In this document: piece after piece, positions 23,277-59,230 of the stretch
Layout of the letters: every line of letters starts with the position of its first letter
Position numbering within the stretch: the stretch's first letter is position 1
Source: an uncultured Alistipes sp.
GTDB taxonomy: Bacteria > Bacteroidota > Bacteroidia > Bacteroidales > Rikenellaceae
DNA length: 64,000 nucleotides
Assembly (NCBI GenBank): GCA_949286165.1
Contig: CASDZK010000058.1
Location: forward strand, 1 to 64,000
Direction: 5' to 3'
Made by a program: the position numbers and the translations under genes
Notes under the pieces: generated by a model
Databases searched by the model: none
What the model was told of the DNA's origin: nothing
Seen by the model: only the letters and a program-made list of their open reading frames with translations

Positions 23277-23402
23277 AAGTTGTCCCCCAAATCTTCATCT
23301 GCCGCGTTACTGCCTTTTAAAACTTCGGTCACGTACTGACTGACGTACGTGACCTCATCTTGGAAAAGCAAAGCCTGACAGATGAAGATTTTTGAACGAC
23401 TT
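23277..23402 (+). repeat. Palindromic intergenic repeat, copy 1
   Basis: Starts AAGTTGTCCC one base after the cydB stop and ends near GAACGACTT. The outer arms (TCTTCATCTG / CAGATGAAGA) pair, giving a long hairpin with a centre containing ACGTACGTGAC. Shares the block CGTTACTGC plus TTCGGTCACGTAC with copies at 42331, 48741 and (inverted) 59107. It probably also acts as the cydB transcript end. Confidence 0.85.
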
Positions 23403-27858: not shown

Positions 27859-27934
27859 GGTTTGAACCCCAATCGATCATTCAGGCTTCGCTTTGATTTC
27901 AGGATCCGGCCTGAGGCCGATTGGGGTTCAAACC
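27859..27934. repeat. Perfect 17-base inverted repeat
   Basis: Arms 27859-27875 (GGTTTGAACCCCAATCG) and 27918-27934, separated by 42 bases that can fold further (CAGGC / GCCTG). It lies just after the YjgN gene stop and could be the transcript end. Confidence 0.7.
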
Positions 27935-27969
27935 ACCGCACTGCGACTTTCAGTCCGCGGCGGTCTCTT

Positions 27970-28069
27970 CCCAAAACGAAAAAAGTTGTGCCCAAAGGCT
28001 TCAGGTGCAAGCCTTTGGGCACAACTTGTCGGTAAAGTATGAAATGAAGTGTCCCTCTTTCGTTTTGGG
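27970..28069. repeat. Nested inverted repeats; shortened copy 5 of the palindromic repeat
   Basis: The inner hairpin has perfect 18-base arms at 27983-28000 and 28010-28027 (AAGTTGTGCCCAAAGGCT). An outer pair CCCAAAACGAAA (27970-27981) and TTTCGTTTTGGG (28058-28069) encloses it. The inner arm resembles the AAGTTGTCCCCAAA end of the longer repeats, and the tail GTCGGTAAAGTATGAA is shared with copy 4. It sits between convergent genes and may end both transcripts. Confidence 0.7.
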
Positions 28070-42324: not shown

Positions 42325-42490
42325 AAGAACAAAAAGTTGTCCCCAAAAACTTCATCCGCTGCGTTACTGCTTTCCAAAGATTCGGTCACGTACGTCATTT
42401 GAAAAGCAAAACCTTGCAGATGAAGCCTTTGGGGACAACCTGTCAATAAAGAAAGTATGCAGGGGGGCCATTCAGTCCCTCTTGTTCTCG
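42325..42490 (+). repeat. Palindromic intergenic repeat, copy 2
   Basis: Core 42331-42442: AAAAGTTGTCCCC at the left, GGGGACAAC at the right, with CTTCATCCGCTGCGTTACTG and TCGGTCACGTACGTCA inside. An outer pair AAGAACAA (42325-42332) / TTGTTCTC (42483-42490) encloses the core plus a tail resembling that of copy 5. Begins 12 bases after the HU/SPOR stop. Confidence 0.85.
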
Positions 42491-48740: not shown

Positions 48741-48870
48741 AAAAAGTTGTCCCCAAAGTCTTCATCTGCTGCGTTACTGCTTTTCAAAAATTCGGCCACG
48801 TACGTCAGTACGCTCCCTCGTCTTTGAAAATCAAAGCCTTGCATATGAAGACTTGTTGAACAACTTTTTC
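48741..48870 (+). repeat. Palindromic intergenic repeat, copy 3
   Basis: Runs from AAAAAGTTGTCCCC through CTTCATCTGCTGCGTTACTG, CGGCCACGTACGTCAGTACG and ATATGAAGAC to GAACAACTT. A G-run (GGGGGGGG) lies just right of it. Between cysK (ends at 48922) and the antiporter start. Confidence 0.85.
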
Positions 48871-58883: not shown

Positions 58884-59106
58884 ACCATACCGATTTTCAT
58901 TCTGTCTGTTTTCAAGGGATTCTCAAAAAACGTTTTCCTAACTTCCCCTGATTTCAGGACTATGCCACAGCCGATTTTTGTCTGTCTGAAGGAATAATGG
59001 GACGAAAAGATGCCAGAAAATAGTGAAACGCGAAGAAGCCGAAGACTCCCTTATGTGGATGTCTAATAAGTAAAAAACAGTTCCTTTCCCTCTTCATACC
59101 TTACCG
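58884..59106. other. Intergenic region before palindromic repeat copy 4
   Basis: No gene, tRNA or strong promoter is visible. Sequences near 59070-59106 continue the tail shared with copy 5 (ATACCTTACCGAC). Confidence 0.4.
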
Positions 59107-59230
59107 ACAAGTTGTTCAAAAATCTTCATATGCAAGGCTTTGGTTTTCAAAGACGAGGAAGCGTACTGACGTACGTGACCGAATCTTCGGGAAGCAGTAA
59201 CGCAGCAGATGAAGATGTTTTGGACAACTT
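59107..59230 (-). repeat. Palindromic intergenic repeat, copy 4 (inverted)
   Basis: Reading on the minus strand it begins GAAGTTGTCC, three bases after the tamA-like stop, and continues CTTCATCTGCTGCGTTACTG, TCGGTCACGTACGTCAGTAC and ATATGAAGAT to GAACAACTT. Closest to copy 3, including the GCATATGAAGA right arm. Confidence 0.85.

Follow-up and report, generated by a model that had tools for sequence, protein, structure and literature searches.

Several long palindromes that resemble one another lie behind genes in the window, i.e., the whole stretch of 64,000 nucleotides of an uncultured Alistipes sp. analyzed here, and the question is which kind of repeat they represent and why they are located there. 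Our reading, to which we assign a probability of roughly 0.7, is that they belong to a non-autonomous, palindromic element of ERIC-like type, which was amplified in this lineage and retained behind stop codons as a possible 3' end signal. The first-pass annotation had proposed a mobile hairpin of the REP/REPIN or MITE type; its description of a multi-copy, MITE-like palindrome at gene 3' ends, with an anatomy suited to 3' end formation, is supported, and the REP/REPIN identity is not. The relationship to ERIC, which it had overlooked, is the main result of the present analysis.

Copies in the Window and in the Genome

All four long copies announced by the first-pass annotation are present, with ends slightly adjusted by model R1, which was trained on 29 copies and provides the coordinates of the full copies (Table 1). 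Each of them is an imperfect palindrome of ~123 bp that forms a single long hairpin, with z-scores of -5.7 to -8.2 for RNA folding (0/200 shuffles equal) and of -4.1 to -5.7 for folding as single-stranded DNA. A fifth copy is devoid of the middle portion, which leaves a perfect 19-bp hairpin, and it retains the common tail. Three copies had been placed 0-12 bases after a stop codon: they are indeed close behind stops, at true distances of 0 (cydB), 21 (SPOR), and 3 nt (TamL). The core of copy 3 points the opposite way to cysK. The TamL lipoprotein, together with other genes present, agrees with a host in Bacteroidota. An Rfam scan of the window returned tRNAs and one TPP riboswitch, and nothing else.

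Table 1. Location of the palindromic element copies and of their tails in the window.
Feature	Position	Strand	Remark
Palindrome copy 1	23277..23402	+	0 nt past the cydB stop codon
Palindrome copy 2	42334..42441	+	21 nt past the stop codon of the SPOR-domain gene; core shortened
Tail of copy 2, degenerate: TCAATAAAGAAAGTATG and small hairpin	42442..42485	+	Boundary drawn by eye
Palindrome copy 3 (query copy)	48744..48866	+	55 nt behind minus-strand cysK; T-runs at both ends
Palindrome copy 4	59109..59230	-	3 nt past the stop codon of minus-strand tamL
Copy 4 tail: GTCGGTAAGGTATGAAGAGGG..., small hairpin included	59050..59108	-	Outer boundary approximate
Fifth copy, internally deleted: perfect hairpin	27983..28028	-	Minus-strand order: tail, hairpin, TTTTTT
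Tail of the deleted copy: GTCGGTAAAGTATGAAATGAAGTGT	28028..28052	+	

The element gave 45 blastn rows in its own genome (2.56 Mb in 71 contigs), and model R1 gave 99 two-strand rows, which reduce to 56 distinct sites with E<=0.01; for 45 sites, E was below 1e-9. This is far above the ten or so copies under which the first-pass annotation would have abandoned the idea of a family. By blastn, the element is absent from a genome of the same genus and from 23 further genomes of the family (24 close genomes), the single outside match over 40 relatives, in genome G034, being judged a chance one; plasmid and phage collections searched with the element of this genome yielded no match. The exact core pattern occurred five times in ~85,000 other genomes, compared to about four matches expected by chance according to our estimate, and one of the five (L065) turned out to be a relative of the element.

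The same-genus genome (G001) is only ~75% identical and offers the sole comparison of gaps, in which no clean empty site with a target duplication (e.g., of TA) was found. The gap that holds copy 4 measures 8 bp there and about 350 bp here, and an ordinary terminator-like hairpin stands behind the SPOR gene in place of copy 2. The gap comparison fits an insertion in the present genome, a deletion in G001 being the alternative.

Anatomy of the Element

The consensus of the element is AAGTTGTCCnAAAAGGCTTCATCTGCTGCGTTACTGCTTTCCAAAGATTCGGTCACGTACGTCAGTACGCTCCCTCATCTTTGAAAAnCAAAGCCTTGCAnCTGAAGnCTTTTTGAACAACTT. Its outer inverted arms are, in this genome, AAGTTGTCC...GGACAACTT, and they enclose an asymmetric core made of CTGCGTT on one arm, GTCAC.TAC-loop-GTA.GCTCC at the tip, and GCCTTG on the other arm. 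The stem pairs were derived from individual folds and then tested on their own, since the raw alignment yielded a structure of just three pairs with RNAalifold. Changes on both sides were seen in 14 pairs of the outer 20-bp stem, and the whole structure exhibits 41 double-change cells vs. 19.6 in shuffles (0/500); pairing falls from 86% to 35-48% when the stem partners are slid. The stem is thus maintained by compensatory changes.

In many copies, one end carries the tail GCCGGTAAAGTATG with a small hairpin and the opposite end a T-run, so that tail, palindrome, and T-run form a larger unit. Such a unit had been suspected from shared flanks in the window, and the tail with its small hairpin is in fact found beside nearly half of the copies, 15 of the 56 having neither tail nor T-run. 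Nineteen copies have the tail on the right-hand side of the + core and six have it on the left-hand side; the core can therefore face either way inside the tail/T-run frame.

Two further repeats accompany some copies. A 75-bp sequence, TTAGTGCACTGCAACTCTTCTTTTCAAAGATACG...GCAAATGTAAATG, is joined to one end of four copies (L004, L014, L030, L036), which hints at a longer variant of the element; among the loci fetched, none carried this sequence without the element. A repeated hairpin, CCCCGAAAGTTTTTTGTCCAACTTTCGGGG, is located inside or beside element copies and also stands alone as a terminator (L035, L037, and G000:C29 near 10140).

Relationship to ERIC

The ERIC repeats (enterobacterial repetitive intergenic consensus; also IRU or RU-1) came to light in 1990-91 and serve widely in strain typing. 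Each is an intergenic, non-autonomous, imperfect palindrome of ~125 bp, as is the window element. A search of 393 genomes of the order with R1 identified full-length relatives in five other genomes belonging to four genera, none of them in the family of the window. These relatives, nine copies of the present genome, and L065 were combined in covariance model R2, in which no ERIC sequence was included. R2 matches the ERIC of the ybhI-ybhJ gap of E. coli end to end, with E=6.5e-5 in 17 kb, covariance-model E-values being only rough. R1, for which only copies of this genome were used, gives no match to ERIC, and the link hence depends on R2 with its intermediates.

The link was also seen in direct comparisons against shuffles that keep the palindrome. 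ERIC scored z=9.1 and 7.7 with the elements of genomes G228 and G138 (0/5000 each) and z=5.0 with the consensus of the present genome (5/5000). The G228 and G138 elements had been found by their likeness to the copies of this genome, not to ERIC; pairwise scores among relatives found by a model carry a selection bias, of which the ERIC comparison is free.

The core blocks follow one another in the same order and at nearly the same spacing in ERIC and in the window element, whereas the terminal arms differ, the tail and T-run frame is an addition of the window element, and the host belongs to another phylum. The terminal inverted repeat of ERIC proper, which carries TA on either side, was not seen: the ends are AAGTTGTCC / GGACAACTT and follow no TA rule. 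ERIC proper was consequently set aside and the element is filed as ERIC-like, not as ERIC itself. A 2024 review gives the range of ERIC as Enterobacteriaceae and Vibrionaceae (PMC10969869). A literature search that covered few subscription papers found neither ERIC relatives in Bacteroidota nor a trans-phylum family, and an earlier report may exist.

Distribution across Phyla

At E<=1e-4, 25 of the 398 Pseudomonadota genomes searched contained an R2 match; plain ERICs made up only a part of these matches. Decoy R3, which consists of the same sequences reversed with mirrored structure, matched none of the same 398 genomes. R2 also matched eight other genomes of the phylum of the window, seven of which come from one family outside its class, as well as six of the eight genomes searched in a third phylum, where the count reached 37 copies in a single genome. 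On one short contig of the third phylum (G1206:C221 26-420), three copies of the element are arranged head to tail in tandem.

When aligned across lineages, these elements exhibit the pattern CTGCGTT...GTCAC.TAC....GTA.GCTCC...GCCTTG, in fixed order and at near-constant spacing, while the terminal arms vary by lineage. The window element shares both this ordered core at fixed spacing and the single imperfect hairpin of ~125 bp. Since this core, at unchanged spacing, is common to ERIC, further Pseudomonadota, a second class of Bacteroidota, and a third phylum, the elements that bear it probably constitute one superfamily; the sharing of sequence is observed, and common descent is inferred from it. 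Core bases have thus been kept over very long distances, and arm bases have not.

The element of the family outside the class presents 92% identity over 51 bp with a repeat found in records of E. coli (L226) and Aeromonas caviae (L227). In both, the core sits inside a different palindromic wrapper of ~140 bp, CCTAYYCCAGTAGGCG...TAGCCTAATGGGATAGG, which gives the impression that cores and wrappers can be exchanged.

This distribution bears on the possibility that the copies are ordinary MITEs, i.e., an internally deleted IS with terminal repeats (AAGTTGTCC...) at which the transposase of a parent IS in this lineage cuts. The element is short, non-coding, and multi-copy with terminal inverted repeats, as MITEs in general are, and its intergenic location and nesting with other repeats point the same way. 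Recognition of the ends, however, predicts conserved ends, and the reverse is observed across lineages, where the arms vary and the core is conserved; moreover, no parent IS was seen in a transposase screen that covered the Y1 family. We regard a conventional MITE as unlikely.

Comparison with Other Repeat Systems

REP sequences are units of 20-40 bp, occurring singly or paired, with a GTAG or CGTC tag (PMC3733652). A REP/REPIN-type element moved by a RAYT, a Y1 tyrosine transposase, was proposed by the first-pass annotation, and the copies do share with REPs their palindromic nature, their extragenic location, their high number, and their preference for sites downstream of genes (PMC3733652). 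A search for Y1_Tnp (PF01797), however, gave no match in the genome, which is 87% complete, whereas E. coli and four other controls were positive (5/14 genomes), and the reading therefore fails on its defining feature. In addition, the repeat unit is one long asymmetric hairpin of ~123 bp, not a unit or pair of 20-40 bp, and its core matches ERIC and no REP; no sequence common to both systems was seen. A REP/REPIN origin thus appears to us highly improbable.

The Correia/NEMIS elements of Neisseria are MITE-like palindromes of similar size with a faint likeness in GTAC...GTAC and GCCTTG. They were rejected as members of the family, R2 giving no match and the excess over shuffles reaching z <=2.7. 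Two other systems were compared by description. The BrickBuilt MITEs of Porphyromonas gingivalis are likewise intergenic MITE-type repeats from Bacteroidetes (PMC4596501; PMC5771137), but are described as containing a minisatellite. SPRITE of Streptococcus pneumoniae, a member of another phylum, owes its name to a resemblance to rho-independent terminators (PMC10969869).

Placement behind Genes and the Terminator Question

Genes were called on the fetched stretches with a home-made codon-usage scorer, and the following counts are therefore approximate. The 56 sites are distributed among 26 convergent, 23 codirectional, and three divergent gaps, three contig edges, and one overlap with a called ORF. 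On the same stretches, a site is present in 26 of 51 convergent, 23 of 203 codirectional, and 3 of 52 divergent gaps, leaving 25, 180, and 49 gaps without one, respectively (Fisher p=2e-7 for convergent vs. divergent and 4e-9 for convergent vs. codirectional). The nearest stop codon lies at a median of 32 nt from the site.

The window copies had given the impression of a common orientation relative to the gene. Genome-wide, the core of codirectional sites is oriented as the gene in 13 cases and opposite to it in 10; the core is thus unbiased and the impression was one of small sample. At discordant sites, on the contrary, the T-run is at the end distal to the gene in 10 cases and proximal in two (p=0.04), and the tail is near the gene in 11 and far from it in three (p=0.06), both on small counts. 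What likely follows the direction of transcription is thus the outer tail/T-run frame, and not the core. Read in the direction of the gene, tail, hairpin, and T-run likely correspond to the order of an intrinsic terminator. That copies could act as intrinsic terminators agrees with their placement, their structure, and the orientation of the frame.

One might then suppose that nothing mobile is involved and that the copies are host terminators or structured 3' UTR elements that have multiplied through duplication and conversion of genes, which would account for the strong 3' end placement, the covariation of the stem, and the frame that follows the gene. Yet ordinary terminators in this genome have different and diverse stems: outside the sites, 149 terminator-like hairpins were counted, with AAGTTR near the outer arm in four, two of which are derivatives bearing the tail of the element. 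Furthermore, termination does not need a conserved core, here one that faces either way, and such an origin sits poorly with 24 close genomes lacking the element by blastn and distant phyla sharing its core. We hold this explanation for very unlikely. The converse idea, that arms are borrowed from host terminators as a general rule, was also rejected, the other terminators here having other arms.

In two genomes of another family (G043 and G331; L068, L070, L074-L083), a clear intrinsic terminator follows every copy read. The arms of these terminators, GGTGTCC/GGACACC or GAGGCTGTC/GACAGCCTC, are partly similar to those of the element itself.

A Proposed Explanation

The non-autonomous ERIC-like element that we favor would have multiplied inside this lineage, and an enzyme presumably mobilized it in trans. 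Copies that landed in genes or promoters would have been lost, whereas those behind stop codons would persist, because neither genes nor promoters are disrupted there and because the transcribed copy folds into a long hairpin with a U-run behind it, by which retained copies may act as intrinsic terminators or 3' end stabilizers. By comparison, the ERIC of Yersinia is reported to change the stability of the upstream transcript through an RNase E site (PMC2229807; PMC10969869). The present family suggests a possible route for selfish repeats to turn into gene terminators.

The conservation of the tip and of the asymmetric core, and not of the ends, suggests that the core may be what the mobilizing enzyme reads. 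Going further, ERIC itself could be a local branch of a superfamily of at least three phyla, in which a shared enzyme would recognize the core hairpin rather than the ends and the arms would vary, tuned by each host to serve as terminators or 3' end signals; we propose this wider scheme tentatively and consider it rather doubtful as a whole. The mobilizer of ERIC is unknown (PMC2229807), and the question of what moves it becomes a comparative one, that of a protein that co-occurs with the core from genome to genome.

Neighboring Repeats in the Window

Other repeats are found next to the element copies. Beside copy 4, at 58884-59050, the window harbors a second repeat family, GATTTC.GGACTATGCC.CAG..GATTTTT.GTCTGT, a relative of which is located inside an element copy elsewhere in the genome (G000:C5:49142-49301, L036), showing that the two kinds of repeats nest. 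Similarly, a palindrome, GGTTTGAACCCCAATCG...CCGATTGGGGTTCAAACC, occupies 27860-27935, immediately to the left of the deleted copy, and its inner portion is similar to the ends of the insert of L036.
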